From Persicimonas caeni (GTDB lineage Bacteria > Myxococcota_A > Bradymonadia > Bradymonadales > Bradymonadaceae): a DNA stretch of 64,000 nucleotides. The notes beneath the pieces were generated by a model. The model had not been told where the DNA came from, did not search any database, and saw only the letters and a program-made list of their open reading frames with translations. The position numbers and the translations under genes were made by a program. The stretch covers positions 5,049,074 to 5,113,073 of the forward strand of contig NZ_CP041186.1 of assembly GCF_006517175.1 (NCBI RefSeq). The letters run 5' to 3'. This document shows positions 6,501 to 50,100 of this stretch, piece by piece; the stretch's first letter is position 1, and each line of letters opens with the position of its first letter.

Positions 6501-6670
6501 GGCGTCACTTGCAAAAGATGGTGCGTAGCAAGGATCGGGGATCAGATTCGATTTGCCAAGTAATAGATTGGAAGGCGAGAGATTGGAAAGCGAGAGATTG
6601 ATCGGATGGGCGGTGTTGCTCGATAGTGCTTGCCTGTAACCCACCAAACTCGAGGAAAGGAGGAGCTGTG

Positions 6671-32746: not shown

Positions 32747-32771
32747 GAGGGTCGGTCCCCGGGCTGGAAGC

Positions 32772-33431
32772 TCACAATTTGGTCACGTCGACCAGGACGA
32801 CGGTCCACGGAAGCGGCGAGCGCACCTCGATGACGCGGCCGTACTGGGCGGCGAAGTCGACGAAGCCGGTGCGCGACCAGTGGTTGAGGTGGCCGGGCGT
32901 GTTGCCCAGGTCGCGCAGGTAGGCGCCGCGGGCCATGTTGAGCACGCGCCACAGCGGCTCGCGGGGCACGCTGAGCACCAGCTTGCGCCGGGCGACGCGG
33001 GCCATCTCGGCCAAAGAGGCGTGCGGATCTTGGACGTGCTCGAGCACCTCGAGGGAGGTGATCGTGTCGAAAGCGTCGTCGTCGAAGGGCAGCGACTCGG
33101 CCACGCCGGTGCAGAAGCTGAGGCGATCGCCCTCCAGCCCCTTCCAGTGCGCCTCGAGTTCGTCGTCCTCCAGGTCGATGCCGGTCACCTCGACCGACGG
33201 GTAGCGCTCGACGATCGCGCGGGCCATGATGCCCTCGCCGCAACCGACGTCGAGCAGCTTTTCGGGCCCGGCGTAGTCGAGCAACTCCCACACCGAGGAC
33301 TTGAACTCGCGCATCATCCAGCGCACGACCGGGTTCGACGAGCCGTACTTGTCGTAGGTGTTGCCGGTGGGCACCGTGTCGGCGTTGGCTGAGTGCGCGC
33401 CCGTCGATTGGGCTGTTTGATCTTGGCTCAT
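32772..33431 (-). CDS. class I SAM-dependent methyltransferase
   Basis: 219 residues. Motif I LLDVGCGEG, acidic motif VTGIDLEDDEL, motif around AESLPFDDDAFDTITS and post-motif EVLEHVQDP identify a Methyltransf_11-type enzyme using S-adenosylmethionine. In this glycan operon the substrate is likely a sugar or polyprenyl-linked intermediate, but the sequence does not show which. 17 bases after the GT2 gene... upstream partner stop at 33449 shows it is translated just after that gene in the same transcript. Confidence 0.88.
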   Translation of the reverse strand: MSQDQTAQSTGAHSANADTVPTGNTYDKYGSSNPVVRWMMREFKSSVWELLDYAGPEKLLDVGCGEGIMARAIVERYPSVEVTGIDLEDDELEAHWKGLEGDRLSFCTGVAESLPFDDDAFDTITSLEVLEHVQDPHASLAEMARVARRKLVLSVPREPLWRVLNMARGAYLRDLGNTPGHLNHWSRTGFVDFAAQYGRVIEVRSPLPWTVVLVDVTKL

Positions 33432-33448
33432 AGCGTGTCGTTAGGCGT

Positions 33449-34450
33449 CTAGACCGCGGCCGGCTCGTTGGCCGGCTCGGTCTGCTTGGAGTGTTCGCGC
33501 TCCTTGTCGGTGTCGCCAAATTCGAGGCGACGTACCCGCCAGAGCGTCTCTTCGACGAGTTTGCGATTGTTGGCGATCAGGTCGGCCAGAAGCCCGGTCA
33601 GCCCGGTCTGGAAGCCGAGCGACATCAACAGGACGGCCAGCAAGAGCGATTGGACGTGCCCGTCGCCGTCGCCGATGGCATAGAAGTACAAAAAGCGCGC
33701 GCCCAGCACGAACCCCGCAAAGAAGAGCAGCGCGCCGATGCCCATAAAGACCTTCAGCGGCTGGTAGGTCGTGTAGATGCGCACGATCGTGCTCATCGAG
33801 CGGGTCACGTACGAGCGGATCGACCCGAAGAGCCGGCTCTCGCGCAGCTTCTCGTTGGTGCGGATGGGCACGTGCGACACCGCGATATTCTTGCGGCCCG
33901 CCTGGATGATCGTCTCGAGGGTGTAGGTGAAGTCGCTGACCACGTTCAGGCGCATGGCGCCTTCGCGCGAGAACGCCCGAAAGCCGCTGGTCGTATCCGG
34001 CACGTCGGTGCTCGACGCTTGCCGGACCACCCACGAGCCCAGGTGCTGCAGGCGCTTTTTGGTCCACGAGAAGTGCTCGATCGTGTCGGTCTGGCGGTCG
34101 CCGATGACCATGTCGGCCTCCCCGCGCACGATCGGGGCGACGAGCTTGGGGATGTCGGCGCCGTTGTACTGGTTGTCGCCGTCGGTGTTGACAATGGCGT
34201 CGGCACCAACACGCAAACAGGCGTTCAGCCCGGTGCGAAACGCCGCCGCCAGGCCCTTGTTGCCCGTGTGTCGCACGATATGGTGCACCCCGTGCTCGCG
34301 GGCGACCTCGACGGTGCGGTCGGTCGAGCCGTCATCGATGATCAGCCACTCGACGGTGTCGAAGCCCTCGACTTCGCGAGGAAGATCGCCCAGCGTCGTC
34401 GGCAGCGTCTTCTCCTCGTTAAAACACGGTATTTGGATGATCAGCTTCAT
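33449..34450 (-). CDS. GT2 glycosyltransferase, dolichol-phosphate-mannose-synthase-like
   Basis: 333 residues from ATG 34450 (MKLIIQIPCFNEE); the open frame further upstream is repeat sequence. GT-A motifs: IPCFNEE, IIDDGSTD, GLAAAFRTGL, NTDGDNQYN (metal-binding D-x-D type) and DTTSGFRAFSRE. Two membrane segments near the C-terminus (FMGIGALLFFAGFVLGARF, SLLLAVLLMSLGF) anchor it. Such enzymes attach a sugar from UDP/GDP donor to undecaprenyl phosphate at the cytoplasmic face. Neighbours supply flippase-like, GT-C and methyltransferase steps. Preceded by a TTCTTGG heptamer array. Confidence 0.92.
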   Translation of the reverse strand: MKLIIQIPCFNEEKTLPTTLGDLPREVEGFDTVEWLIIDDGSTDRTVEVAREHGVHHIVRHTGNKGLAAAFRTGLNACLRVGADAIVNTDGDNQYNGADIPKLVAPIVRGEADMVIGDRQTDTIEHFSWTKKRLQHLGSWVVRQASSTDVPDTTSGFRAFSREGAMRLNVVSDFTYTLETIIQAGRKNIAVSHVPIRTNEKLRESRLFGSIRSYVTRSMSTIVRIYTTYQPLKVFMGIGALLFFAGFVLGARFLYFYAIGDGDGHVQSLLLAVLLMSLGFQTGLTGLLADLIANNRKLVEETLWRVRRLEFGDTDKEREHSKQTEPANEPAAV

Positions 34451-34474
34451 AGAGGTGAATCTCACCCTGGAGTT

Positions 34475-34560
34475 TTCTTGGTTCTTGGTTCTTGGTTCTT
34501 GGTTCTTGGTAACAGCGTCGAGAGAGCGACCAAGAACCAAGAACTAACCACCAAGAACCG
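34475..34560. repeat. TTCTTGG heptamer array with inverted partner
   Basis: Five tandem TTCTTGG units at 34475-34509 are followed by CCAAGAACCAAGAAC and CCAAGAACC (34530-34559), so the segment can fold back. It occupies the leader of the GT2 gene. A second four-unit TTCTTGG array is at 49842-49869. Confidence 0.8.
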
Positions 34561-34655
34561 GTTCATAATCGTCGGACTATTCAGTAGCCGGAAGACGATT
34601 CTCGAAGTACGGAAGCTCCGTGTGTGTACTTAGCAGGCTCATACCGCGAAAACAA

Positions 34656-35666
34656 TTACTCCGATGCGTCGTCTGCCCCCATATCATCGGCGATCGGCTC
34701 GGGGAGTCGGTGCATATAGCGCAGCATGAAGGGGATGCCCACCACGGCGGGCACGCCGAGCACGGTCAGGCCGTAGGCGAGCGTCGAGGCGAGCAGGGCG
34801 GCGTCGTCGACCGGGCCGCTGCCGACCAGGTCGAGCATGGCGATGAACGCGGTGTCGCGGGTGCCCATCCCGCCGATGGTCAGCGGCAGAAGCCCCACGA
34901 ACACCGCGATGGGCCACAGGGCGATGATGTCGACCAACGCGACCTCGGCGCCGAAGACGCGCGTGAGCGTAAACAGAATCAGCAGGCCCACCGACCAGGC
35001 GAGCAGCGAGATCAGCGACAGCCCCACGTAGCGCCAAGGCCGCTGCCGCATGGCTCCAAACGCCATGAAGAGCTGCAAAAATTTCTTCTCGAAGCGGTTA
35101 AGTACCGGAAGGCTCAGGAAAAACGAGCGCTTCCAGGAAAGCAATCCGAGAAAGGCGAACCCCCCGGCGAGCACCGCGGCGATGCCCAGAGACCAGCCGT
35201 ATAGGCCGGTCAGGATGCCCCCGGTGATGCCGAGCAGGCAGAGCGACTGCACGTCGACGAATTTGTGGACGAGCACGCTCCCCGAGCCCTGCACGAGCGG
35301 GACGATGTCGCGAATGCCCACGGCGCGCAAAAAGTCGCTCACCCTCGACGGGGTCGCGATCGCCAGGGGGCAACTGGCCATGATGACCGACATCGTGCGC
35401 CCGAAGGGGAGCTCGAAGCCCATCGTCTGCACGATATAGCGCCAGCGGATGCCCGAAAGCAGGATGAAGACGACCAGCAGCCCCGCCGTGACCGGCAGGA
35501 GCGTCCAGTTGCCCGCCATGATCGCGTCGAGGAGCTGCTCGCCGCCGGCGAGCTTGCGGATCAGGATGTAGATGATCGCCGCGGTCGCCGTCAGAAGGAA
35601 GGCCATCTTGATGGCGTCCTTCGAGCGCGAGCGCCCGGGGGGCATGGCGTCGTCGAGGTCGCTCAC
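34656..35666 (-). CDS. LPG_synthase_TM-family membrane protein (UPF0104-like flippase candidate)
   Basis: 336 residues with about eight hydrophobic segments and no soluble catalytic domain. TIGGMGTRDTAF near the end and SDFLRAVGIRDIVPL fit the lysylphosphatidylglycerol-synthetase transmembrane family, members of which are proposed to move lipid-linked sugars across the membrane. Its ATG overlaps the TGA of the preceding GT-C gene by 4 bases (ATGA), so translation is coupled. Followed by a 205-base gap before the GT2 gene. Confidence 0.88.
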   Translation of the reverse strand: MSDLDDAMPPGRSRSKDAIKMAFLLTATAAIIYILIRKLAGGEQLLDAIMAGNWTLLPVTAGLLVVFILLSGIRWRYIVQTMGFELPFGRTMSVIMASCPLAIATPSRVSDFLRAVGIRDIVPLVQGSGSVLVHKFVDVQSLCLLGITGGILTGLYGWSLGIAAVLAGGFAFLGLLSWKRSFFLSLPVLNRFEKKFLQLFMAFGAMRQRPWRYVGLSLISLLAWSVGLLILFTLTRVFGAEVALVDIIALWPIAVFVGLLPLTIGGMGTRDTAFIAMLDLVGSGPVDDAALLASTLAYGLTVLGVPAVVGIPFMLRYMHRLPEPIADDMGADDASE

Positions 35667-38101
35667 TCGTCGCCTCCTGCGGCGTCAGCCGACGCGTCCG
35701 CGGGCTGGGGCGTGCTGCACATCAGCCCGACCGCGTCGATGAGGTGGCCCGAGCGGGTGACCACGCCGGTGGCGACCGTGCCCGCGGGGCACATCAACTC
35801 GAAGTCCTCGCCGCCGCTTCCCACCTCGCGGGTGCGGGTGGTCGCGCCGTGTTCGTCCGCGTCGAAATCCACTTGGGCGCAGACGGCCGACATGCGCTCG
35901 ATGAGCGAGCCTTTGCCGCCGGCGATGCCGACGACGGCCTTGCCGTGGGGGCACTCGAGCGGCGTCGATTTGCCGAAGCTGAGCTTGCCGAAGCCCGGGG
36001 CCTTCCCGTGGCGTCCGCTCAGCTTATAGGCGTCGCCCTTCTTCTCGACTCCTACGCATCGCGGGCGCAGCCAGCCGAGGGCGCGGCTCTTCTTGTCGTC
36101 GGAGACGTCGAAGCCCGCGAGCGCCTCGGCCGGCCCGCAGCGCCACTGGTGCTCGGTGCCGCCGCGGCCGCCGATCGTCTCGACGTGGGGCGGCTCGGCG
36201 CCGCACAGTTCTTGTTCGGCCACGAACGGATCGGGCGGCACGCGCAGGGTGTGGAAGCGAAAGGCCGCGCTCATGTTGCCGAAGAAGCGCCCGAAGGTCA
36301 GCGGGGCCTGCACCGCCTCGAGGAGCTCGGCGAGGCGGCCGCATTGGAGCACGCGGCGCGCGGTCTGGATGCGCGGATCTTCGCCGGGGACGGGCTCGGC
36401 GAAGCGCGCGACCATCCAGGCGTCGCTCAGAGACTTCTCGTGGCCCGGGCGGCCGCGCTTTTCGATCTTGAGGTGCGAGCTCAACGGGTCGGACAGCCCG
36501 ACGTGGTCGACGACGTGGACGTGCGGGCCGACGACGGTGCCCCGGATGCCCATGGCGGTGCGCTGGGCGGCCACGCCGATCTTGCGTTTGGCGACCTTGT
36601 CGCGCAGCGGATAGGTGCGCTTGCTCGGGAAGAGTTTGCCGAATTTGGTCCCCTGATACGGCCGCGCGTAGACGACCGGCTCGCAGGTGTCGCCCTCGCC
36701 GAAGGCCGCCGGACACTGCTTCTTGGCCATCTTGCGCAGCATGACCGCGTCGCGGTGGAAGCTCGTCTTCGCGAAGTCGTCGGCGGTGATCGGGTTGTCG
36801 ATGCCCGACAGGCGCGTCCACCAGCCGCGCTCGTCGCCGATGCCGTGGACGTTCTCGCGGGCTACGCGAATGGAGGTCGCGCAATAGACCGCCCACCCGA
36901 CGATGAGCGCGAAGACGAGCGCCCGTGCGCCCACATACGCCGGGGGCGTGTCCTGGGGGCGAAGGCGCACGACCATCACGGTGAGCAGCGTGCCGAAGAC
37001 CGGCGGCAAGAAGAGGCGGCCGTGCATGAAGCCGCCGCCGACTTTGACGACGTAGACGGTGTAGGCGATGCCGCACAGGGTGGGCAGCAGGACCAAGCTG
37101 AGCCTGCGCCAGCGCTTCTCGCTCGCCTCGCGCACGACCGCCGAGATCCACAGCACCGCGGCGAGCGCCATCGGAAAGAGGAGCTCGTAGAGGCCGAAGA
37201 AGTGGTCGAAATAGTGGCCGCCCTGCGTCCAGCGCGACTCGAACGCCTCTTTGGCGTAGGCCGTGTTGGGCACGAGCGCGGCGTAATAGCCCATGCGAAA
37301 GAGCTGGTAGCCCACCGGCAACGCGCCCATGGCGACGCCGAGGAGGACGAGTTTTTTGAAGCTGAAGCCGCCGCGCTCCCTGTGGAAAAACGCGAGGAGC
37401 AGGCAGGCCAAAAACGTAAAGCTGTAGAGGGCGAGCTCGGGGCGAACGAGCGGGCCGAGGCCCAGGACGAAGCCGGTGGCGTAGAAGTGCGAGTCGGGGC
37501 GTTCCTGGGCCGATTGTGTCTGGGCCGAGGAATCGTCGAGGCCGACGCGCGTGATCAACGTGAAACAAAGGGCCATCCAGAAGAGGGCGAGCCCCGTCTC
37601 GAGCCCCGAGCTGGCGTAGTCCCAGGCCGCCGGGATCGCCGCGTAGATGACCAGGCCCACTGGGAGCACCCCGGCAAAGCGGGGCGTCTCGTCGCCCGGC
37701 TCGCGGTGCAGCGCGCTCGCCGTCCAGGCGGCCAGCGCGAGCGCGGCGATCGACAGGCCGATGCCCCCATAGACCGCCGCGTACTCCACAGGCACGCCCA
37801 GCGCGCTGGGGATGGAGGTCAGCGCCACCCACAGGGTGCTCGTGTGCGCCTCGATGCGCTCGCCGACGTTAAAGACCGGGCCGAAGCCGTCCAAAATATT
37901 GTGGACGATGCGCACATTGATGAACCCGTCGTCGCTCATCCAGCGGCGCTGCCAGGCGCCCACGGCAAACGCGACGATGGGCACCAGGGTGAGCAGGAGC
38001 CACGGCAGGCTACGCCACCTGGGCGCGTCGCGCCGGCGGGTCGGGCGTTGTTTGGGTGATGTATCGGGTTGGGACGACACTGAATGGCCCCCAGAAGGCA
38101 C
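35663..38101 (-). CDS. GT-C glycosyltransferase with C-terminal Cys-repeat (lectin-like) module
   Basis: 812 residues. After a basic N-terminus and the first membrane segment comes MSDDGFINVRIVHNIL with D57/D58, followed by GFGPVFNVGERIEAHT, the typical first periplasmic loop of polyprenyl-phosphate-dependent arabinosyl/mannosyl-type GT-C enzymes. About ten more membrane segments follow to near 430. The C-terminal 170 residues contain three units of about 30 residues with C...A..G....G..Id....C spacing (WRCGPAEALAGF, LECPHGKAVVGI, LMCPAGTVATGV). I read the repeats as an extracytoplasmic binding module fused to the transferase. First gene of the operon. Confidence 0.87.
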   Translation of the reverse strand: MPSGGHSVSSQPDTSPKQRPTRRRDAPRWRSLPWLLLTLVPIVAFAVGAWQRRWMSDDGFINVRIVHNILDGFGPVFNVGERIEAHTSTLWVALTSIPSALGVPVEYAAVYGGIGLSIAALALAAWTASALHREPGDETPRFAGVLPVGLVIYAAIPAAWDYASSGLETGLALFWMALCFTLITRVGLDDSSAQTQSAQERPDSHFYATGFVLGLGPLVRPELALYSFTFLACLLLAFFHRERGGFSFKKLVLLGVAMGALPVGYQLFRMGYYAALVPNTAYAKEAFESRWTQGGHYFDHFFGLYELLFPMALAAVLWISAVVREASEKRWRRLSLVLLPTLCGIAYTVYVVKVGGGFMHGRLFLPPVFGTLLTVMVVRLRPQDTPPAYVGARALVFALIVGWAVYCATSIRVARENVHGIGDERGWWTRLSGIDNPITADDFAKTSFHRDAVMLRKMAKKQCPAAFGEGDTCEPVVYARPYQGTKFGKLFPSKRTYPLRDKVAKRKIGVAAQRTAMGIRGTVVGPHVHVVDHVGLSDPLSSHLKIEKRGRPGHEKSLSDAWMVARFAEPVPGEDPRIQTARRVLQCGRLAELLEAVQAPLTFGRFFGNMSAAFRFHTLRVPPDPFVAEQELCGAEPPHVETIGGRGGTEHQWRCGPAEALAGFDVSDDKKSRALGWLRPRCVGVEKKGDAYKLSGRHGKAPGFGKLSFGKSTPLECPHGKAVVGIAGGKGSLIERMSAVCAQVDFDADEHGATTRTREVGSGGEDFELMCPAGTVATGVVTRSGHLIDAVGLMCSTPQPADASADAAGGDE

Positions 38102-38517
38102 GTGACTTCAATGGGTCGAAAAGCAGCTGCGCGCGGCAGCGGCGCGAGTCTAGACCACATCGACTTACAACGCCAGAGATTGCTCGCAAGCCGACGGAAA
38201 CGTTGGTGAAGGTCCCCGCGGACCGCGTTGGCGCCCCCGATTTGGATATTGACCTGACGGCCGAGCCCGTTCGAGCACACGAGCGGCAGGGTGACTTCGC
38301 CCGCTGCATGCTCGAACGCGTTCGCGAGGCAGGGGTAGCAAGAAAAGAGAGTGCTCGCGGGCCTTCGCGCGCCAAGTCGAGTCGGCGACGAAGTGCTCGC
38401 GAGCACTTTCGGGTCAGGTCAAATGGCCGAGGGCGGGGCGTTTGCGCATTTTTGCGCCAGATCAACCTCGTCAAGAGGCGCGCCGGCGGGTTCGAGCCCC
38501 ACCCCCGGGGCCCCAAC
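38102..38517. other. intergenic region with a perfect 18-base palindrome
   Basis: No gene with codon-like structure is seen. At 38391-38408 lies the perfect palindrome AAGTGCTCGCGAGCACTT, with a related half GTGCTCGCG at 38351-38359. It may be an operator or a small hairpin upstream of the GT-C gene start at 38101. A tRNA-like 3' end near 38488-38515 is discussed under rejected items. Confidence 0.5.
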
Positions 38518-39339
38518 TCAGGCTTCGACGGCCGGCTGGTCGGGGAGGGGGGCGTCCTCGTCGGCGCGATTCTCACCGGTTTGCGGGTCGACCTCGGGGG
38601 GCTGGCCGCCACCGTTTCGGCTGTAGAACTCCGCGAGCCGATCGTTTTGCATGGCGAACGGCCCCAACAATTTGGAGCGCATGCGCAGGTCGGCCTCCGA
38701 GGTGGTCGGGTAGGCCCCGCCGATGCGCCAGATGCACTCGTACATTTTTGCGCGGATGCCGTCTTTGCTGGCGGCGATCGCCTGCTTGGTGGGCCCCTCG
38801 GCGTCGTGGTCGACGCTCATACGGGCGACGAACTCGTCGAAATCAGCCTGCAGCACGTCGAAGTGCGCCTCGAGCTCGCAGGTCTTGATCTCGTTGACGA
38901 AGTCGTTGGCCAACTGGCCGATGATGGTGCCCATGGTCGACTCCTGCTCCTCGCGGTGCACGTTGGTCACCGTGTGCACGGGCGCACGCAGCGGCCCGCC
39001 GAGCATCTTCTGGGCGGCCTTGCCACGCGCCGAATCCGCGCCGTACAGGTCGATCTCGGTCTCGACCTTGGCCACGAAGCTCGAATAGTTGCGGTCGAGC
39101 CGGTTGTCGGCCGGGCCGACCTCCGGGTCGACCACCTGCTCCTGGGCCACGCTATACGCCTGCAGCAGCCCGCTGTGGCTCACGCAACGATCGTAGAGCT
39201 CCTGCAGGCAGTCGGTGAGCTCCGGGTCGACGTTCTCCTGCTTCGCCGCCTCCAGCGCGTTGCGCGCCGACCACTGCGCGCGGGTGTGGTCCTGCTTGTA
39301 GGTGTCGATGAATTCGTCCTGCGGTACCGTGCGACTCAT
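38518..39339 (-). CDS. hypothetical protein (273 aa), helical
   Basis: Start ATG 39339 follows GGAG by five bases; the open frame upstream has no such site. No signal or membrane segment. Mostly helical (RAQWSARNALEAAKQ, CLQELYDRCVSHSGLLQAY, IGQLANDFVNEIKTCELEAHF) with a disordered acidic tail (ENRADEDAPLPDQPAVEA). Four cysteines spread over the helical part. No family recognised. It lies alone between the glycan operon and the repeat array. Confidence 0.8.
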   Translation of the reverse strand: MSRTVPQDEFIDTYKQDHTRAQWSARNALEAAKQENVDPELTDCLQELYDRCVSHSGLLQAYSVAQEQVVDPEVGPADNRLDRNYSSFVAKVETEIDLYGADSARGKAAQKMLGGPLRAPVHTVTNVHREEQESTMGTIIGQLANDFVNEIKTCELEAHFDVLQADFDEFVARMSVDHDAEGPTKQAIAASKDGIRAKMYECIWRIGGAYPTTSEADLRMRSKLLGPFAMQNDRLAEFYSRNGGGQPPEVDPQTGENRADEDAPLPDQPAVEA

Positions 39340-39496
39340 AGCAACTCCAGCGTTGGCGACGCGCACCCGCAGCACAGACGGGTGTGGCGTCTGGTTAGCT
39401 GCCCCCTCGTACCGACGTGGGCATGAATGAAAAGGATGTAGGGCGACGATAGCAGGAGAGGTGGCGGGGGGGAAGGGGCCGTTGAGGGTTCGGTGC

Positions 39497-39841
39497 CTTA
39501 AGAAATTCACCGTCGGGAAGCAGAACCGGTCAACTGCCCCCGTGATCGTGATCGGCTGTTGCAGTTGCTAGCGGTCAAACAGCCGATCACGATCACGATC
39601 ACGATCACGGACGGCGCGTAAGCCTGCGCTCAATTTGTGAAGCCTTCACTTGCCCTCGTCAGCGAGAGCTGGAAGCACTCGCACCGAAAGAAGACAGCGC
39701 GATGTGTGTTCGGTGCGTGGGCATCTTGCCCTCGTCAGCGAGGGCTGGAAGCACTCGCACCGAAAGGCGACAGCGCGATATGTGTTCGGTGCGTGGGCAT
39801 CTTGCCCTCGTCAGCGAGGGCTGGAAGCACTCGCACCGAAG
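39497..39841. repeat. repeat block D1 plus two E units
   Basis: D1 (39497-39690) starts CTTAAGAAATTCACCGTC, contains the hairpin GTGATCGTGATCGGCTGTT...AACAGCCGATCACGATCAC with loop of about 17 bases, then a shared tail ending GCACTCGCACCGAAAG. Two E units (39709-39766, 39785-39841, period 76) each begin TTCGGTGCG and end CGCACCGAA with inner CCCTCG/CGAGGG. Full D/E copies recur at 40471-40792 and 42341-42690. Confidence 0.85.
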
Positions 39842-40358
39842 GGCGACAGCCGTGTGTGACCGAAGGAAACGTCCGCGCGGCCGTCGGCCCTCGCCTCAGT
39901 GTTCTTCAACGTTTCCGGGGTCCTCGGTGTGCGCTTCCGTGTTTCCACGGCCTCAACGGCCTCGGTGCTTCCACGGCCTCAACAGAGCGATCCCGTCTGC
40001 CACACCCACCATGGCCCGATTTCAAAAATAGTACGCAACGATTCGGCAATTTTGCCGATAACCGTAATGAGGGCCTCGACGCGTCGTCTCACCCAGCGCC
40101 GTGTTCGAGATCGGCCCTCGCGGATGCGCACCCGACGACGAAATGACACCCCGGCCTGGCCCACGCCTCCAGCCGAGCCACCCCACGCGGGTGGGCGAAG
40201 CTGAGGCGGGCGGAGGCAGCGCCGAGGTACGTCTTGGATGGTCAATGGGGGTGGGTCCGCGGGACCCAGGGGGAGGGAGCCATGCTGCTACGCTCTTCGT
40301 ACTCGCAAGTCGCGCGCGCGAGGCAGGCGGCATGCAGCCATGGAAACACGGAGGCACA
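39842..40358. other. intergenic, repeat debris, no gene seen
   Basis: The segment 39890-39990 carries fragments related to the reverse complement of block F (CCTCGGTGTGCGCTTCC, CGGTGCTTCCACGGCC repeated twice). The stretch 40020-40330 is GC-rich with a G-run around 40240-40275. Short ORFs here lack ribosome sites and look like shadows. Confidence 0.5.
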
Positions 40359-40792
40359 GAAACATTGAGCCATGGAATCACGGTAGAGCACACCGAGAAC
40401 CGCGGAAGCACCGAAGAAGGCTGACCACGGAGGCGTGCCGCATGTGTTCGGTGCGTGGGCATCTTACAGTTTAAGACATTCACCGTCGGGAAGCAGAACC
40501 GGTCAACTGCCCCCGTGATCGTGATCGTAGTCGTGATCGTGATCGGCTGTTGCAGTTGCTAGCGGTCAAACAGCCGATCACGATCACGATCACGATCACG
40601 ATCACGGACAGAGCGTAAGCCTGCGCTCAATTTGTGAAGCCTTCACTTGCCCTCGTCAGCGAGGGCTGGAAGCACTCGCACCGAAAGAAGACAGCGCGAT
40701 GTTAGTTCGGTAAGAAGACAGCGCGAGGTAAGTTCGGTGCGTGGGCATCTTGCCCTCGTCAGCGAGAGCTGGAAGCACTCGCACCGAAAGGC
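40359..40792. repeat. direct repeat block F1-D2-E, left flank of the lone lipoprotein gene
   Basis: F1 (40359-40456, 98 bases starting GAAACATTGAGCCATGG) is the same as 42243-42340. D2 (40471-40687) has the longest GTGATC/CACGAT hairpin arms of the three D copies. One E unit follows at 40735-40792. The whole block precedes the GTG of the lipoprotein at 40883. Confidence 0.85.
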
Positions 40793-40882
40793 CAAGGTCC
40801 TCCGTGTTTGCACTTATGACTTCTGCCGTCGGACTTCTCGCGGCCGCACGACGCGTTCCTTTTTCTTCATCGAGGGGCAACA

Positions 40883-42175
40883 GTGCTTCGCTCGTTCACG
40901 ACACACTTCATTCGTCTCTGGTTGATCACAGCGACGTTGGCTGCACCGGCGCTGGGGTCCGTGGCGTGCGACGAGCACGGGCAGGGAGCGAACCCCGAGG
41001 TGTCGGACGTCGCACCATCGACCGACTCCGAGCCGGACGCGTCCGTCGACTCGACGGGGCAGGACGTCGGTGACGAGGGGTGTCGCGACCCGCTGGAGGG
41101 CCAGACGGGCTCGGGCGAGGCGTTTGCGAAGCCGGAGGCCGGGCTTGCCGCGGTGGGCGATATTCGTGGCATCGTCGATCCCGACAGCGCGCAGCCGGCT
41201 GAGGGCTACTCGAATCGCATGAGGCGTGTGCTGCGGCCTCGCGAGCACATGCGCCCGAGCTCTCGGGCCGACGAGGTGTGGCTGCACGAGGGGGAGTATG
41301 CGGTCATGGACGCCGCCTACGTGGTGACCGGCGAGGAGCTGAACCCTCCAAAGCTCTACGAGTTGTTTGTCTTCGTGGACTTCGAGCCCGTCGAGTTCGG
41401 GGTCATTCCGGTCAATCCCGAGCTGGGCTCGGAGCCGTTTCCCAGCCTCGAGGAGGCCCGGGGCGTCGACGAGTGGGTTCGCTCGAAGACGGTCGACCTG
41501 CAGATCGACCAGCCGGTGGCCTTTACGCTGGTGTTGCCGCCGTCGGTGTTCCCCGAAAAGAGCGCCTACGACGTGCGCGTCAGCCTGGTGGGTCGCCCGC
41601 CGCGCGACTCGGGCAAGGCGATGGGCATCGGCGAGGTGCGCAGTCACTCGCTGATCTTGAACTACGGGACGACGGCGTTCACGCACGCCGCGGCGGTCGA
41701 GCTCGAGAGTGGGGAGGGCGGCCCCGTGGCGCCTCCGGAGTATCTGCGCGCCGAGATGCGCAGTTTTGCCGGGTTTGTCGAGCCGCCCGAAGAGGTCTGG
41801 GATCCGTCGAGTCTCGATCCTCCCGCGGTGTACGACGACGTCGACCTGGCTCAGATCTTCGAGGTCGAGGCCGACACCGCCCGGCTTCGCGCCTGGCTGC
41901 GAAGCTCTTCGCGTGAGCCGCAGGCGCCCATGTACGTCGTCGCCCTCGACGGCCAGCGCGCGCTCGACGCCCCGCGCGGCTATGTCGAGCTGCCCGCGCG
42001 GCCGAGCGACTACTTCGGCACCCAAGAAAAGTTTGCCGTCGAGGTGCCCTTCGAGCTCGCCGTCGAACCCGAGCGTGTGCACGCGGTCCAGCTGCTCAGC
42101 TTCTCCAATCCGTATTGCCGCAGCGGGCGAAGAGAGGTGAGCTCGTCGAATATCGTGCACGTGACGAGGCAGTGA
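40883..42175 (+). CDS. hypothetical lipoprotein (430 aa) bracketed by direct repeats
   Basis: GTG start at 40883 with GAGGGG upstream. Signal ending at lipobox GSVAC (Cys29), followed by an acidic disordered region (DVAPSTDSEPDASVDS). The main domain includes EVWLHEGEYAVMDAAYV, PPKLYELFVFVDFEPVEF and VPFELAVEPERVHAVQLL, a repeated beta-rich layout; two C-terminal cysteines (PYCRSG and CRDPLEG) may pair. No recognised family or catalytic motif. Both sides carry the F-D-E repeat blocks (40359-40792 and 42243-42690), an unusual setting that could reflect mobility or duplication. Confidence 0.85.
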   Translation: MLRSFTTHFIRLWLITATLAAPALGSVACDEHGQGANPEVSDVAPSTDSEPDASVDSTGQDVGDEGCRDPLEGQTGSGEAFAKPEAGLAAVGDIRGIVDPDSAQPAEGYSNRMRRVLRPREHMRPSSRADEVWLHEGEYAVMDAAYVVTGEELNPPKLYELFVFVDFEPVEFGVIPVNPELGSEPFPSLEEARGVDEWVRSKTVDLQIDQPVAFTLVLPPSVFPEKSAYDVRVSLVGRPPRDSGKAMGIGEVRSHSLILNYGTTAFTHAAAVELESGEGGPVAPPEYLRAEMRSFAGFVEPPEEVWDPSSLDPPAVYDDVDLAQIFEVEADTARLRAWLRSSSREPQAPMYVVALDGQRALDAPRGYVELPARPSDYFGTQEKFAVEVPFELAVEPERVHAVQLLSFSNPYCRSGRREVSSSNIVHVTRQ

Positions 42176-42242
42176 GCGCGTGAGGAGGCGTGGAGGGCGT
42201 GGAGGCTCGGAGGCCGTGGAGGCATGGAAACATGGAGCCACG

Positions 42243-42690
42243 GAAACATTGAGCCATGGAATCACGGTAGAGCACACCGAGAACCGCGGAAGCACCGAAG
42301 AAGGCTGACCACGGAGGCGTGCCGCATGTGTTCGGTGCGTCTTAAGAAATTCACCGTCGGGAAGCAGAACCGGTCAACTGCCCCCGTGATCGTGATCGTA
42401 GTCGTGATCGTGATCGGCTGTTGCGGTTGCTAGCGGTCAAACAGCCGATCACGATCACGATCACGATCACGGACGGAGCGTAAGCCTGCGCTCAATTTGT
42501 GAAGCCTTCACTTGCCCTCGTCGGCGAGAGCTGGAAGCACCCGCACCGAAAGCGCGCGAATTGTTCGGTGCGTGGGCATCTTGCCTTCGTCGGCGAGAGC
42601 TGGAAGCACCCGCACCGAAAGCGCGCGAATTGTTCGGTGCGTGGGCATCTTGCCCTCGTAAGCGAGAGCTGGAAGCACTCGCACCGAAAG
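42243..42690. repeat. direct repeat block F2-D3-E-E, right flank of the lone lipoprotein gene
   Basis: F2 (42243-42340) is followed directly by D3 (42341-42552) and two E units (42564-42621, 42633-42690, period 69). The D loop differs from D1/D2 by one base (GCGGTTGCTAGCGG). Block ends about 85 bases before the GT-C gene start. Confidence 0.85.
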
Positions 42691-42776
42691 CGCGCGAATT
42701 GGCATTTGTCGCCGAACTCTTGTATATCGTTCAACGCCTTCGGGCGCTCCGATATCATCTGTAGGGACTCTGACCG

Positions 42777-44900
42777 ATGCAACAACCCGACGCCGATTCA
42801 CGCCTGTCCAAGTTCGACAGGTGGCTGACGGCGGCCTTCTGGCTGCTGTTGGCGCTTCCGGGGCTTCGCCAGCTCGGCCTGTTGGCCGGGGCGGTGGGGC
42901 GGCGGTTTGGTTACGGCTACGACCTCGAGTGGATGGAGGGCGGCAACCTGACCCACGCCTGGCGTATCGCCAACGGGTTGTCGGTGTATCCGCCGCCGTC
43001 GGTCGACTTCATTCCCTATCTCTATACGCCCGGCTACCCGGCGCTCATCGCGGCGCTGGGGAGCATCTTCGGGATTTCGTACGGCACGGCCCGGGCGGTC
43101 AGCAACCTGGCCATTCTGGGGTGTTTGGTGATCGTGGGGACGGTGGCGTACCGCTCGATGCAGGCCGCTCGCGTATCCGAGCCGGACGGGCTGTGGTGGC
43201 CGATCGCGGCCGCCGGGGCGTTGGGCGGCGCGGGGATCTATGCGTCGGGATATCCGTGGATGGACGGCTGGTACGATATCGGCCGCGCCGACTCCCTGCT
43301 CATCTTCATGGTAGCCGCCTCGGCTCTGGGGCTGATGGTGTGGGGGCCGAAGTCGAAGGAGTCGACCACGCTGGGCGGCTGGGTCGACTGGCGCATCGTC
43401 GGGTGCGCGGCGGTGCTCGCGCTCGGCTTTTTCGTCAAGCAGACCGGCGTGCTCTTCGTGGCCGCCGCCGGCGCGGCGATCCTGGTGCTCAACTGGCGCA
43501 TGGTGCCCGCCTACGTGGTCACCAGCGGCACGATCGGGCTGGGCGGCACCTACCTCTACAACACGCTGACCGACGGGTGGTTCTGGACCTACATCTACCA
43601 ATACCACCAACGCCACACCAACGAGAGCGAGCGCTTCTGGGGGGCGTTCGAGAAGTTCTGGGACAAATTTCCGACCGCGCTCGTCGTCGTCGGCGCGGCG
43701 CTGGTCGTCGTGGGCGTCTACGCGGCCGTGCGCCGCAGGCTGCCGCGCTCGGGCGGGCAGTTTTTGCTGTGGGCGTGGTTCTTCGGGGTCGCCGTGGTCG
43801 TCGGCGCGGTCGGCCTGACGACGCAGTGGTCGTACCTGAACGCGTTTATCCCGGCGCTCGTCTTCGGCGCCATCGCCTCGGCCGCCGGCGTGGTCACGCT
43901 CGCCGAGATCGGCCGCGAGATCGGCCCGCGCAGCCAGACCGCGCTCGTCTTCGCCGCGCTCGCCGCGCTCGCCGCGCACTCGCACGAGGCGCTGTGGGAG
44001 CCCGACAAATTCGTGCCCACCGCCCAAGACCAAGCCGCCGGCGACCGCCTCGTCGAGACGCTTCGCGAGGTCGACGGCCCGGTCTTCGTGCCCTATTCCC
44101 CGTGGTACGCGCACCTGGCCGGCAAGCCGCTGCACACCCACAAGATGAGCATCACCGACGTCACCAACCTGTCGCCTCGCCATTGCCCGCCGCCCGAGGA
44201 GCAGAAGCCCGGCGAGGAGTGCGTCTGGCTGCCCGATCGCGCGACCGAGGTCGTCGGGTTGAAGGAGGGGCTGCAGGAGAAGAGGTGGGATATCGTCATC
44301 CTCAAGCCGTATAATAGGGAGGCGATGTTTCGCCCCCTGGAGCGCAGCTATCGCCCCTCGCTCAAGCTGACCGACGAGATGATGCCCTCGCAGCCGACCG
44401 GCTACGAGGTGCGCGGCCTGCGCGTGTGGCGGCCGATCCGGCCGATGGAGCCGCCGGAGAACGCCCGCGTGGTCTTCGACTTCGAATCGACTCGCCTGCA
44501 GGGCTGGAATATCCGCGGCCGCGCCTGGGGCCGAGGGCCCGCCCGCGGCAAACTCGCCCGCCAGATGCCCGTGGGTGGCTTCGGCGGCGACCGCCTGATG
44601 AACTCGTACCACGGCGGCGACAAGGCCACCGGCACGGCGGTCTCGCCGCTCTTCGAGGTCGACGGCAACGAGCTGGTGCTTCGCGTCGGCGGCGGCAAGG
44701 GCGACAAGGTCCGCGTCGAGCTGCGCGACGCCCGCGGCAAGGTCCTGTTCACCGCCCGCGGCGAGAACAGCGAAATCTTGAGGGAAGTGCGGTGGGACGT
44801 GTCCGAGCTCGAGGGCCAGAAGGTGCGCCTCGCGCTCGTCGACGAGTCGACGGGCGGGTGGGGACACCTGTTGGTCGATGAAGTGTGGATGGTGCGGTGA
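42777..44900 (+). CDS. GT-C-type membrane glycosyltransferase with C-terminal jelly-roll domain
   Basis: 707 residues. After the first membrane segment, YGYDLEWMEGGNLTHAW carries the E/D signature of GT-C first loop; FIPYLYTPGYPA and YASGYPWMDGWYDIGRADS add further loop features. About ten membrane segments to near 400, then a soluble part. The last 140 residues (VVFDFESTRLQGWNIRGRAW ... SYHGGDKATG, LVLRVGGGKGDKVRVELRD) are beta-sandwich-like carbohydrate-binding type. It probably adds sugars to a lipid-linked or surface glycan from polyprenyl-phosphate donors. The sulfatase-fold gene follows. Confidence 0.88.
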   Translation: MQQPDADSRLSKFDRWLTAAFWLLLALPGLRQLGLLAGAVGRRFGYGYDLEWMEGGNLTHAWRIANGLSVYPPPSVDFIPYLYTPGYPALIAALGSIFGISYGTARAVSNLAILGCLVIVGTVAYRSMQAARVSEPDGLWWPIAAAGALGGAGIYASGYPWMDGWYDIGRADSLLIFMVAASALGLMVWGPKSKESTTLGGWVDWRIVGCAAVLALGFFVKQTGVLFVAAAGAAILVLNWRMVPAYVVTSGTIGLGGTYLYNTLTDGWFWTYIYQYHQRHTNESERFWGAFEKFWDKFPTALVVVGAALVVVGVYAAVRRRLPRSGGQFLLWAWFFGVAVVVGAVGLTTQWSYLNAFIPALVFGAIASAAGVVTLAEIGREIGPRSQTALVFAALAALAAHSHEALWEPDKFVPTAQDQAAGDRLVETLREVDGPVFVPYSPWYAHLAGKPLHTHKMSITDVTNLSPRHCPPPEEQKPGEECVWLPDRATEVVGLKEGLQEKRWDIVILKPYNREAMFRPLERSYRPSLKLTDEMMPSQPTGYEVRGLRVWRPIRPMEPPENARVVFDFESTRLQGWNIRGRAWGRGPARGKLARQMPVGGFGGDRLMNSYHGGDKATGTAVSPLFEVDGNELVLRVGGGKGDKVRVELRDARGKVLFTARGENSEILREVRWDVSELEGQKVRLALVDESTGGWGHLLVDEVWMVR

Positions 44901-44907
44901 ACTAACG

Positions 44908-44941
44908 TGTTTCGTCACACCGACTTGTTTCGTCACACCGA
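44908..44941. repeat. two direct repeats of TGTTTCGTCACACCGA
   Basis: Copies at 44908-44923 and 44926-44941 (period 18) lie in the 139-base gap between the GT-C gene and the sulfatase-fold gene. Spacing of about two helical turns is typical for a dimeric regulator site, but no other support is seen. Confidence 0.5.
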
Positions 44942-45039
44942 TATTACCTATGATGCCCCGGCTTGCGCCCAGCTCGCTCGTCCGTTCGAGCGCTCGGGCG
45001 CGGCCACGTCACTTCCGGTCATCCCCAAGCAGTAGTTGC

Positions 45040-47331
45040 ATGAGCTTCGTCGAGCGATTCATCAAGGGCGGCCTCTTTGGTCTGGCGTTCGCGCTGGGTT
45101 GGTTTGCGGTCGAGGGGCTCTACCTCGCGCTGCAGTCTGCGAGCGCGCCGGTGTGGAGTGCGCCGTTCAACGTCGGCGTCGCGGCCCCGCTTGTGCTCGG
45201 GGCCGGACTCGCCGCGGCGGCGATTTTCGCCGGGTGGAGTCTGTACCTCGACGCGTTCGAGCCGGCGCGCTTGCTCGTCCAGCGCGCGTCGGCCTGGCTC
45301 TGGCGAGGCTCGGCACGGCAGCACGCGCGCCGAAGCGCGTGGCTTCTGGCGTTGCCGCTGCTCCTCGCCGTCTGGTTCGGCGTCGGGGTCGTGACTGGCG
45401 AGGCCGTGTTGAGCACGGTCAAGACCACCGCCTTTGCGGTGTTGCTCATCGCCGGCGTCTTGCTGGTGGCTGCGTTGGCGTTGGCGCTGATCGCGCCTCT
45501 GCTCGTGTTGCCGCTCGAGGCGCTGTTGGGTTGGCTGGGCCGCTTCGTGCCCGGAGGGGCGCTGGCGCCGGCCTATACGCTCGCGGTGCTCGGGGCCTCG
45601 GGGTGTTTGGTGGTCGTGGCCCTCTGGTTCGCGCTGCCCGACGTCATTCCGCACCTTCCCTGGCACTTCGTCGCCAGTTTGTTGGCCGGATGCGCCGCCG
45701 TCGCGGGCACCTACAAGCTCATCGAGCGGTGGCCCGGGCATGTGCGCTGGCTCGCGAGTGCGTCGGCCGGTCTGACGATTTTGCTGGGCCTCGGCACCGC
45801 TTATATGCCCGTCTCGCTGGCCAAGGCGCGAGGCGTCTTCGTCGGTCAGACGTCGGTCGCCAGCGCGTGGTACGGCGTCCTGGACAAAAAGCTCGACTAC
45901 GACGACGACGGCGCGCTGCACGTCTTTGCAGGCAACGACTGCGCGCCCCACGACCCCAAGATCAGCCCGACCCAGAGTGAAATCATCTCCAATGGGATCG
46001 ACGAGAACTGCTCGGGCGCAGATCTGAGCATCGACTTGGCCGACTTCGAGGAGGGGACGAGCTCTCACCCGCAGCCCGAGGGGATCGCCAAAAAGCCGCA
46101 TATCATCCTGGTCACCACCGATGCGCTCTCCCACGGCCACACGAATATGGCGGGCTACAAGCGCGACACGACGCCGGAGCTGGCGAAGTGGGCCGAGCGC
46201 GCCACCGTCTTCGAGAATGGGTTCGCCCTCGCCCCGAGCACGCGCTTGGCGATGCCCGGGCTGCTCGCGGGCATGTTTAACAGCATGATGCCGCTGAAGA
46301 AGACCCGCATCCACCCCTTCCCGTGGAAGCGAGAGACGCCGTCGCTGGCGAGCAAGCTCACCGAGCGCGGCTACAGGACGGTGTTTCTTCCGGGAGACAA
46401 GCTCTTCGTGCCCAAGACCTGGCGCGGGTTGGCCCACGGCTTCGACGAGGTCGACACAAAGCCGATGCGTACGGCCAAGGACAAAGGCCACACCGCTCCC
46501 GAGCTAACCGAGCGTGCCATCGAGTTGATCCGCGAGCACAAGGGCAAGAAGCCGCTCTTTTTGTGGGTGCATTATTTCGACCACCACGCCCCCTACGAGG
46601 TGCCGAAGGGTCACGAGGTCTTCGAGGGCAACGAGCGGGTCGATCGCTTCGACAACGAGCTTCGCTGGACCGACAAGTATTGGGGCGAGCTGTTCGACGC
46701 CATCGCCCAGACCTACGAGCCCGAGGAGTACGTGCTCGCCTTCACCTCCGACCACGGCGAGGCGTTCGACGCCCGGCACAAAAAGCACCACCACGGCTAC
46801 ACGCTCGACACGCCGGTGCTGCACGTGCCCTTTGTCATCCAGGCGGCCAAAGGACGAGGGAAGCGCGTCGACGGTCTCGTCTCACACGCCGACATGCCCG
46901 TCACGCTGGCGAACCTCGCCGGCATCGAGGCCGACGAAGACTGGATCGGCGAGAGCTTGGTCCCGGTGCTGTTCGACGACAAGCCGGTCCAAAAGGACGT
47001 CGTCTTCGGGCTCTTCTACCTCCCCGAGGACCGCAAACGCTCCCAGGACCCGTTCCGCAAGCTGTCGATGCGCACCCTGGACTTCGCCTATATCGAAGAC
47101 CGGCGCAAAGGCCACCGTCGCCTGCTCGACTGGAAGAAAGACCCCGTCGGCCTCGACAACCTGGCCGACGAGAAGCCCGAAATGCTGGAGATGTATCGCT
47201 ACGTCACCGCTCAGAAGCTCGAGTGGCTGCGCGAGAACGAGCGTGCTCTGAGGCTTCGAAAGAAAGGCAAAGAGAAGAACCGCAAAGTGCGCAAAGGTCG
47301 CAAAGAGAAAAAGCTGCGCAAAGGTAATTGA
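45040..47331 (+). CDS. membrane-anchored sulfatase-fold transferase with MopE-type motif
   Basis: 763 residues if started at ATG 45040 (MSFVERFIKGG); the frame is open back to 44878 without a ribosome site. About six membrane segments to residue 265. Residues about 286-330 (LDYDDDGALHVF, NDCAPHDPK, NGIDENCSG) match the MopE putative metal-binding motif. From 351 on is an alkaline-phosphatase-superfamily domain: ILVTTDALSHGH, APSTRLAMP with S400/T401/R402 at the usual nucleophile position, FDHHAPY, TSDHGEAFD (about 571) and KKHHHGY. No Cys is at the nucleophile site, so it is not a formylglycine sulfatase; phosphoethanolamine or phosphoglycerol transfer to an envelope glycan is likely. Confidence 0.86.
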   Translation: MSFVERFIKGGLFGLAFALGWFAVEGLYLALQSASAPVWSAPFNVGVAAPLVLGAGLAAAAIFAGWSLYLDAFEPARLLVQRASAWLWRGSARQHARRSAWLLALPLLLAVWFGVGVVTGEAVLSTVKTTAFAVLLIAGVLLVAALALALIAPLLVLPLEALLGWLGRFVPGGALAPAYTLAVLGASGCLVVVALWFALPDVIPHLPWHFVASLLAGCAAVAGTYKLIERWPGHVRWLASASAGLTILLGLGTAYMPVSLAKARGVFVGQTSVASAWYGVLDKKLDYDDDGALHVFAGNDCAPHDPKISPTQSEIISNGIDENCSGADLSIDLADFEEGTSSHPQPEGIAKKPHIILVTTDALSHGHTNMAGYKRDTTPELAKWAERATVFENGFALAPSTRLAMPGLLAGMFNSMMPLKKTRIHPFPWKRETPSLASKLTERGYRTVFLPGDKLFVPKTWRGLAHGFDEVDTKPMRTAKDKGHTAPELTERAIELIREHKGKKPLFLWVHYFDHHAPYEVPKGHEVFEGNERVDRFDNELRWTDKYWGELFDAIAQTYEPEEYVLAFTSDHGEAFDARHKKHHHGYTLDTPVLHVPFVIQAAKGRGKRVDGLVSHADMPVTLANLAGIEADEDWIGESLVPVLFDDKPVQKDVVFGLFYLPEDRKRSQDPFRKLSMRTLDFAYIEDRRKGHRRLLDWKKDPVGLDNLADEKPEMLEMYRYVTAQKLEWLRENERALRLRKKGKEKNRKVRKGRKEKKLRKGN

Positions 47332-47388
47332 GTTTTTACTTTTGCGTCCCCAGCGCACTTGGCGCCCTTTGCGGTTAGCTCCCCGATT

Positions 47389-47796
47389 TCACGCCCCGAT
47401 ATGCACCACCACGCGCCGGCTCTTCGGGCTGGTGCGGTGCTCCCACAGGAAAATCCCCTGCCAAGTGCCCAGCGCCAGGTCGCCGTCGATGATCGGGATG
47501 GACAGCGTCGTCGAGGTGATTGCCGCCTTGATATGCGAGGGCATGTCGTCGGGGCCCTCCATCGTGTGGGTGTAGTGCGGGTCGTTCTCGGGCACGTGGC
47601 GGTTGATCCAGTTCTCGAGGTCGCGGCGCGCCGACGGGTCGGCGTTCTCTTGGATCGTCAGGCTGGCCGAGGTGTGTTGGATGAACAGCGTGCAGAGGCC
47701 CTCTTGGAGGTCGGCGCTGCGGACGACGTCGCGGACCTCGTGGGTGAATTCGTGGAGGCCTTGTGATGGGGTTTGGATTGTTAGGGTTTTGAGCAT
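47389..47796 (-). CDS. YjbQ family protein (UPF0047)
   Basis: 135 residues, normal for the family. HTSASLTIQENADP, MEGPDDMPSHIK and ALGTWQGIFLWEHR are the family signatures, including the three metal-type histidines. Members show weak thiamin phosphate synthase activity, but their true role is unclear. Divergent in sense from neighbours and directly preceded on the plus strand by a G-rich repeat tract. Confidence 0.92.
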   Translation of the reverse strand: MLKTLTIQTPSQGLHEFTHEVRDVVRSADLQEGLCTLFIQHTSASLTIQENADPSARRDLENWINRHVPENDPHYTHTMEGPDDMPSHIKAAITSTTLSIPIIDGDLALGTWQGIFLWEHRTSPKSRRVVVHIGA

Positions 47797-47800
47797 GGTT

Positions 47801-47846
47801 GGTTTGGGGTTTGGGGTTTGGGGTTTGGGGGTTTGGGGTTTAGGGG
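47801..47846 (+). repeat. GGGGTTT tandem repeat with G-quadruplex potential
   Basis: Five G4 or longer runs separated by TTT (TTTGGGGTTTGGGG type), ending in a run of six G at 47843-47848. Four regular G4 runs with 3-base loops satisfy a quadruplex pattern. It sits 5 bases from the yjbQ start codon, in its leader region, and adjoins the 143-base tandem duplication. Confidence 0.8.
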
Positions 47847-48272
47847 GGCCTCTCCCTCGGTCCCTCTCCTTCCCTTCGCTTCGCTACGGGTGGAGAGGGA
47901 GGCCTCTCCTCGGTCCTCTCCTTCCCTTCGCTTCGCTACGGGTGGAGAGGAAGATGTCGTTCAATCGATCTCTGTACAGAGTGCGATGGGGCCTCTCCCT
48001 CGGTCCCTCTCCTTCCCTTCGCTTCGCTACGGGTGGAGAGGGAGGCCTCTCCTCGGTCCTCTCCTTCCCTTCGCTTCGCTACGGGTGGAGAGGAAGATGT
48101 CGTTTAGTCGATCTCTGTACAGGGTGCGATGTTGCTCTACCGATCTCTGTACCAGGTGCGTACTGGCAACATCTTCCTCCCCTGCGCGAAGCAAAGCGTA
48201 GCGTAGGGGAGGACCGAGGAGGGGACTCCTCCTCCGCAAGCAAAGCGAAGTGGAGGAGGACCGAGGAGGAGG
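47847..48272. repeat. 143-base tandem duplication with inverted degenerate flank
   Basis: Units 47847-47989 and 47990-48132 start GGCCTCTCCCTCGG and end CTGTACAG(A/G)GTGCGATG. Each unit contains two near-copies of a shorter segment with CTTCGCTTCGCTACGGG. From 48175 the complementary sense appears (GTAGCGTAGGGGAGGACCG and GAAGTGGAGGAGGACCG), so long hairpins are possible. No gene. Confidence 0.8.
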
Positions 48273-48278
48273 AAAAAC

Positions 48279-49775
48279 TCATTTCCGATCACTCTCCTCC
48301 GTCACCTTCCCCAACCTCTCCCACGCTTCACCCGGCTCCAACAACGCCGCATCCATGCGCCACGTCCAGTTGTTCCCGTTGCCGCCGGGCACATTCATGC
48401 GCGCTTCGGTGCCGAGCTCGAAGATATCCTGCACGGGCACGATCGCCATGCCGGCGTCGGAGCCGAAGACTGCGTCGATCATGCACCAGACGATCTCGTC
48501 GTCGCCGCACGACAGGTACTCGCGCACCTTGTGCTGTTGCATGTCGTCGAGGTCTTCGTACCAGCCGCGGGTGGTGTCGTTGTCGTGGGTGCCGGTGTAG
48601 GCGACGAAGTTCTCTTCGTAGTTCTCCGGCAGGAAGATGTGCTCGGGGTCGTCCCAGTCGGCGAATTGCAGGACCTTCATGCCCGGCAGTTCGTGGCGGT
48701 CGCGAAGCTCGAGGACCTCGTCGGTGATCAGGCCGAGGTCTTCGGCGATGAAGGGGACCTCGCCGAGCTCGTCTTCGATCGCCTCGAAGAGGGCGTCTTT
48801 GGGGCCGTCTCGCCATTCGCCGTCGACGGCCGTGTCGGCCTCGGCGGGCACCGCCCAGTAGGCTTCGAAGCCGCGGAAGTGGTCGATGCGGATGAGGTCG
48901 ACGGTCTCGAGGACCGTCTCGATGCGGGCGAGCCACCACTTGTAGTTCTGCGCGTCGATGGCGTCCCAGTCGTACAGCGGGTTGCCCCACTTTTGGCCCG
49001 TCTTGCTGAAGTAGTCGGGGGGCACGCCGGAGACGTCGTCGACGTTGCCGTCTTCGTCCATCTGGAAGATGTCGCGGTTGGCCCACACGTCGGCGCTGTC
49101 CATGGCTACGAAGATGGGGATGTCGCCAATAAATTGGATGCCGCGCTCGCCGGCGTAGTCGCGAAGCTTTTGCCACTGGTCGAAGAAGATCCACTGGCGC
49201 CACTCGAGCTTTTCGATGCCGTCGGCGTGCTCCTCGCGAAAGCGCGCGAGCGCCACTTCGTCGCGCTCGACGTACTCGCTGGGCCACTGGCGCCACTCGA
49301 CGCCGCCGTACTCGAATTTAAGCTTCATAAAGAGCGCGTAGTCCTGGAGCCAGTCGGACTCGCGCTCGCAGAACGCGTCGAACTCGGCGCGGCTGCCCTG
49401 GTCGTCTTTTCGCCAGCGCTCGCAGGCGAGGTTGAGGAGCTCGCCCTTTGCGGGGGCGACCACGCCGTAGTCGAGGTGGTTGGGATCGAGGTCGGCGACC
49501 TTCTGGCGGTAGGCGTCGACCTCGTCGCGAGTCAGCCACGCGCGGCCGACGAGCGCGTCGAGGTCGATCATCAGGTCGTTTCCGGCGAAGGCCGACGTCG
49601 CCGAGTACGGCGAGCCGCCGTGGCCGGGCACGTTGAGCGGAAGCGTTTGCCACCACGATTGGCCCGCCTCGCCGAGGCGGTCGGCGAAGGCGCGCGCCTC
49701 GGCGCCGAGGGTTCCGATGCCGTCGGGGCTGGGCAAGCTTGTCGGGTGCAGCAAGACTCCGGCTGATCTTTCCAT
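48279..49775 (-). CDS. malQ: 4-alpha-glucanotransferase (amylomaltase)
   Basis: 498 residues from ATG 49775 (MERSAGVLLHPTSLPSP). GH77 features: LLHPTSLPSP near the N-terminus, SPYSATSAFAGN, ADVWANRDIFQ, catalytic nucleophile D in RIDHFRGFEAYW, acid/base E in FIAEDLG and the THDNDTT motif. It transfers alpha-1,4-glucan chains in maltodextrin and glycogen metabolism, in the cytoplasm. Length is typical of the shorter bacterial/plant-type group. No other glycogen gene is in the window. Its leader carries four TTCTTGG units. Confidence 0.96.
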   Translation of the reverse strand: MERSAGVLLHPTSLPSPDGIGTLGAEARAFADRLGEAGQSWWQTLPLNVPGHGGSPYSATSAFAGNDLMIDLDALVGRAWLTRDEVDAYRQKVADLDPNHLDYGVVAPAKGELLNLACERWRKDDQGSRAEFDAFCERESDWLQDYALFMKLKFEYGGVEWRQWPSEYVERDEVALARFREEHADGIEKLEWRQWIFFDQWQKLRDYAGERGIQFIGDIPIFVAMDSADVWANRDIFQMDEDGNVDDVSGVPPDYFSKTGQKWGNPLYDWDAIDAQNYKWWLARIETVLETVDLIRIDHFRGFEAYWAVPAEADTAVDGEWRDGPKDALFEAIEDELGEVPFIAEDLGLITDEVLELRDRHELPGMKVLQFADWDDPEHIFLPENYEENFVAYTGTHDNDTTRGWYEDLDDMQQHKVREYLSCGDDEIVWCMIDAVFGSDAGMAIVPVQDIFELGTEARMNVPGGNGNNWTWRMDAALLEPGEAWERLGKVTEESDRK

Positions 49776-49841
49776 ATCGCTACGTGGATGCGGGGATGTG
49801 AACGTGTCTGAAATACTAGTCGTGTCGAATTGGTGCAACTG

Positions 49842-49869
49842 TTCTTGGTTCTTGGTTCTTGGTTCTTGG
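49842..49869. repeat. TTCTTGG heptamer array, second locus
   Basis: Four tandem TTCTTGG units. Like the array at 34475 it lies upstream of a minus-strand gene (malQ, start 49775). No inverted partner is seen nearby. Confidence 0.8.
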
Positions 49870-49920
49870 AGGTGTAGCCTTCGGTGGTCGCCTTGCAGAT
49901 GCGCGGCGCCTGCTACATAA

Positions 49921-49999
49921 GCAATTAAGGACATGAGGGCTGCGAGTCGCCACGAGTCGGCTAGTCGACGCAATTCGCAGCCCCTATGTCCTTAATTGC
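49921..49999. repeat. intergenic hairpin with 25-base arms
   Basis: GCAATTAAGGACAT at the left edge pairs with ATGTCCTTAATTGC at the right; the inner GGGCTGCGA pairs with TCGCAGCCC. The AT-richer arm contrasts with the GC-rich genome and suggests a distinct repeat type or mobile origin. Between malQ and the THUMP methyltransferase gene. Confidence 0.85.
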
Positions 50000-50100
50000 C
50001 TAGGTAGACGGCGTTCCGATTCTGCAGGGCCCACGCCTCGACAAACCGAGCCAACAGCCTCTAACTTTCAACACTCCACCACTCCCAACAACCAAACCAC

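Follow-up and report, generated by a model that had tools for sequence, protein, structure and literature searches.

The direct repeats that bracket the lipoprotein-like gene of this locus are, with a probability of about 0.7, a by-product of a REP/RAYT system that spread around a resident, lineage-specific gene; the gene itself is not shown to be mobile. Coordinates without a prefix are positions in the window (the whole stretch of 64,000 nucleotides that was analysed); those prefixed C1: are coordinates of the genome contig. Repeat surveys covered 1.6 Mb and chosen loci, and the REP half-unit pattern was counted over the whole genome. The relatives found belong to the Bradymonadaceae.

Layout of the locus

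The elements stand in the order D1-E-X-F1-D2-E-gene-F2-D3-E (Table 1). A match of 98 bases between F1 and F2, given by the initial annotation, was borne out, the longest identical run being of exactly that length. The D hairpin block was found three times (39498-39648, 40471-40645 and 42342-42510), and alignment of the copies gave two to three substitutions together with indels in the hairpin arms; E units were aligned behind every D (three after D1, two after D2, three after D3), and copy 1 is without F, as first described. No transposase-like ORF was seen in 39340-42776 and no Y1 transposase match was obtained in the region; Rfam returned no family reaching the gathering score within 30000-50000, and no integron attC core was noticed at the locus on inspection by eye. 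The earlier statement that a transposase is lacking holds locally; genome-wide it fails, a candidate cognate RAYT being encoded elsewhere.

Table 1: Features of the bracketed locus (window positions).
Feature	Position	Strand	Basis or remark
Upstream neighbour, 273-aa protein	38521-39339	-	no Pfam or NCBIfam match
Copy 1, D-bearing REPIN, 200 bp, ends TTCGGTGC ... GCACCGAA, no F block	39489-39688	+	alignment
Array 1, two plain E REPINs (39709-39764, 39785-39840), linker type GACAGCGCGATRTGTG	39709-39840	+	alignment
Dispersed noncoding element X	40005-40330	+	
F1, 98 bp, identical to F2	40359-40456	+	
Copy 2, D-bearing REPIN, 239 bp (56-bp E unit + 183-bp insert)	40447-40685	+	
183-bp D insert in copy 2	40464-40646	+	removal test, hairpin fold
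Array 2, plain E REPIN	40733-40788	+	alignment, fold
Lipoprotein-like gene, 430 aa	40883-42175	+	
F2, 98 bp, identical to F1	42243-42340	+	
Copy 3, D-bearing REPIN, 220 bp	42331-42550	+	
Array 3, two plain E REPINs (42564-42619, 42633-42688), linker type AAAGCGCGCGAATTG	42564-42688	+	alignment
Downstream neighbour, 707-aa protein	42777-44900	+	homologues 39-46% in relatives

The E units as REPINs and their candidate RAYT

The E units are REPINs; the family is new, the kind already known. The 56-bp unit consists of two inverted 26-bp REPs. Search for the half-unit (degenerate pattern, ≤2 mismatches) gave 523 sites in the genome of 8,047,206 bp and 0 sites for the reversed control; about 90% of the matches were intergenic, often within tandem arrays, and E units are thus dispersed across the whole genome rather than specific to the locus. 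In the 1.6-Mb sample 202 REP sites were obtained (≤4 mismatches; control 2), 181 of them outside and 21 inside predicted genes, though approximately 83% of the sample was predicted to be coding (rough ORF filter; coding figures approximate). An inverted doublet at 30 bp was the commonest spacing of neighbouring REPs in this sample (37 cases), and many tandem REP arrays were present. Single-strand folding gave z = -4.8 to -7.9 for the E unit and z = -12 for the D hairpin (D2), both against dinucleotide shuffles; folding of D and E is therefore beyond chance. The assignment to REPINs follows from the inverted doublet at short fixed distance, the hairpin, the high extragenic copy number and a RAYT with the same REPs. 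Each array, or small group of arrays, has its own linker between tandem REPINs: one type is common to arrays 1 and 2, a second belongs to array 3, and each of the two is met again in further arrays.

Pseudomonas REPINs occur in ordered clusters (PMC3116915). Like the REPINs of Pseudomonas fluorescens SBW25, the E units are inverted REP doublets that form hairpins, are mostly extragenic and form tandem clusters in which flanking sequence is included, each RAYT having a distinct cluster beside it (PMC3116915); sequence and spacing differ, a large share of the copies here is held in tandem arrays, and a long palindromic insert is present in three of them. With the E. coli REP/BIME and TnpA_REP system the present one has in common a RAYT flanked by its own REPs and clustered palindromic intergenic repeats; in contrast to the E. 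coli GTAG REPs, the E consensus is without this tetranucleotide (PMC8266576, PMC3733652). The GTAG-tagged REP superfamily is defined by GTAG at one end (PMC3733652), and the family described here falls outside it, GTAG being absent from the E units read. CGTC was found at the centre of some E units only and is not conserved.

The strong hairpins upstream and downstream of genes would also suit a conserved role in regulation or at the mRNA ends of adjacent genes, with the blocks kept identical by selection. Such an explanation of the blocks is very unlikely: one terminator-like site was found against 2.3 expected, F is conserved as well as the D hairpin, and the E-type REP family is missing from 20 genomes of the bacterial family, bar one site with 2 mismatches.

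Genome-wide search for Y1 transposases gave 26 matches. One of them, L034 (C1:5453046-5453792, ~0.36 Mb from the locus), is a RAYT candidate with tandem E-type REPs upstream and one inverted E-type REP downstream; PF01797 was matched above the cut-off, and the best NCBIfam match was REP-associated tyrosine transposase (E 3.9e-18; 65.7 bits, below the cut-off of 80). By its flanking REPs and its co-occurrence with the family, L034 is well supported as the likely enzyme pairing with the E REPs. Among 26 Y1 transposases the probability of finding one close to an E cluster by chance cannot be neglected (rough estimate ~0.4); the two-sided inverted arrangement at L034 makes chance placement less likely. 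A RAYT paralogue (C1:3488200-3491200; 62% identical) is interrupted by an in-frame stop within the matched region; the tandem palindromic repeats on its two sides are its own and differ from E, and several RAYT homologues in relatives likewise have distinct palindromic arrays beside them. No close RAYT relative was found among 20 genomes of the bacterial family.

Repeat blocks and proposed origin of the bracket

Copy 2 reads GGGCATC-[183 bp]-TTGCCC around the D insert. After removal of the insert a sequence was left that matches the plain E unit 39709-39764 in 56/56 positions; D was therefore cleanly inserted into an E REPIN in this copy. Copies 1 and 3 keep the REPIN ends, and clean insertion is demonstrated for copy 2 only, since the left REPs of the other two are shortened. 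The insert meets the REPIN at C|T junctions. Characterised TnpA_REP enzymes cleave this dinucleotide (PMC8266576); C|T being common, the junctions are only compatible with such cleavage.

D is a 183-bp palindrome-bearing segment; D-type GTGATC palindromes were found at ~30 other places in the genome, and the whole-length block at this locus only. F has four diverged relatives elsewhere in the genome; one of these directly precedes a tandem REP array. Element X was obtained in seven full-length copies (this one and six others) and one split copy (C1:1360138-1362095), interrupted by a 1.6-kb two-ORF insertion that resembles an IS3-family element; a search of 20 relatives gave no copy of X. The initial 69 bp of X resemble the leader that precedes RAYT genes and recur at ~25 other places, several of which also precede such genes. 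An RNA structure of X was unsupported in the alignment of copies (double changes in 3/84 pairs; covariation term +0.92).

The initial annotation had proposed either a composite non-autonomous unit carrying the gene or a duplication hotspot, and its interpretation is supported in the second part only. The hotspot agrees with the near-identical blocks left and right of the gene, with array-specific linkers and with further brackets in the genome. The composite unit is not supported: E, D-type palindromes, F and X each occur elsewhere without the gene, and neither a second gene copy nor F-gene-F was found elsewhere in the genome, so that there is no evidence for the gene as cargo. Composite transposons and IS-based translocatable units also place direct repeats on either side of a gene; in contrast to these, the repeats here encode no transposase and are widespread without the gene.

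In a related scheme, a circle holding the gene together with a single F-D-E block would have entered a resident block by homologous recombination and could excise again; this would account for near-identical direct repeats that flank exactly one gene, and a second case, L070 (below), could be counted in its favour. The scheme is nevertheless unlikely, the genome having yielded no second copy of the unit either, the repeats being spread without the gene, D1 standing outside the unit, and the genes in other brackets looking unrelated. A block-gene segment duplicated in tandem, with one of the two genes then lost and the flanking blocks left behind, would suit both the repeating order of elements and the high identity of F1 and F2; this course is quite unlikely, because no gene remnant was found between array 1 and F1 (short, mostly chance-level matches only) and this space is occupied by X.

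For the preferred origin, as a by-product of REP/RAYT activity, the following course is proposed. L034 would, judging from its flanking REPs and co-occurrence, likely have copied E REPINs into intergenic sites; the arrays may then have grown by local tandem duplication, as the array-specific linkers suggest. The palindrome-bearing D was inserted into one E REPIN, as the clean insertion in copy 2 shows, and D-bearing REPINs, twice with the adjacent F, may then have been copied between the arrays to the left and right of the gene. The difference in linker type between arrays 1-2 and array 3, set against the near-identity of D and F in copies 2 and 3, argues for copying between arrays and not for a single region-wide duplication. 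Homologous recombination or conversion between REPIN arrays is the most likely route; copy 1 could alternatively have moved as a REPIN-bounded unit, because its left boundary is a REP end. Substitutions shared among the three D copies were considered as proof of conversion and rejected: with three sequences, independent change fits every difference. The outcome would be a lone gene between direct repeats of ~330 bp, in principle able to recombine. The locus is probably a recombination-prone REPIN hotspot, at which the gene might be excised or amplified.

The results add a large REPIN population and a candidate RAYT in a Bradymonadaceae genome; a literature search (open-licence papers only) gave no paper on Bradymonadales and palindromic repeats. 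They also show that one REPIN accepted a 183-bp palindromic insert, D-bearing copies now standing in three adjacent arrays. Should REPIN arrays favour local duplication around genes, they would provide lineage-specific lipoprotein genes with homologous sites through which these may be lost or amplified.

The bracketed gene, its neighbours and other brackets

The gene encodes a protein of 430 aa from a lipoprotein-like family; a Cys is conserved in 10 aligned homologues, and the gene product is therefore a real member of a protein family. Homologues of the family are confined to the bacterial family and are of low identity; paralogues in the same genome are 27-30% identical, and no close homologue was found in 57 other genomes searched. 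Pfam and NCBIfam were searched without a match, PDB sequences without a significant match; the predicted structure model has a mean pLDDT of 68.7. A tie between D palindromes and the lipoprotein paralogues was considered and rejected, the cases being too few: of three paralogues checked, one (C1:2808956) has a D-type palindrome at a distance of 0.5 kb and two do not.

The upstream neighbour has a paralogue (43% identical, C1:1988245-1989069) that is likewise preceded by an E array; a pair of 86-bp direct repeats encloses this paralogue. Synteny by way of the downstream neighbour was uninformative, its homologues in relatives having different neighbours.

In the 1.6-Mb sample single genes or transposases were also met between other pairs of direct repeats; some of the repeats concerned are coding or linked to insertion sequences, and the enclosed genes look unrelated. 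L070 (C1:2633400-2635600; repeats at 8-386 and 1558-1936), met through the search for D, consists of 379-bp direct repeats (98.7% identical) that carry a D-type palindrome and enclose one lipoprotein-like gene. With two lipoprotein brackets at hand, the idea that lone lineage-specific surface lipoprotein genes are recombinational cassettes, excising, amplifying or relocating by means of palindrome-bearing repeats, is kept alive at a low probability; if true, such cassette behaviour would vary the cell surface.

Two further sets of direct repeats were observed. At C1:6155123-6158523 repeats of ~207-240 bp, several at 239-bp spacing, surround small genes, one of them resembling a toxin of the ParE/RelE type. 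Within the window, 1-2326 and 3951-6543 belong to 2.6-kb direct repeats (92% identical; C1:5048794-5051399 and 5053024-5055616), which probably represent a gene duplication.
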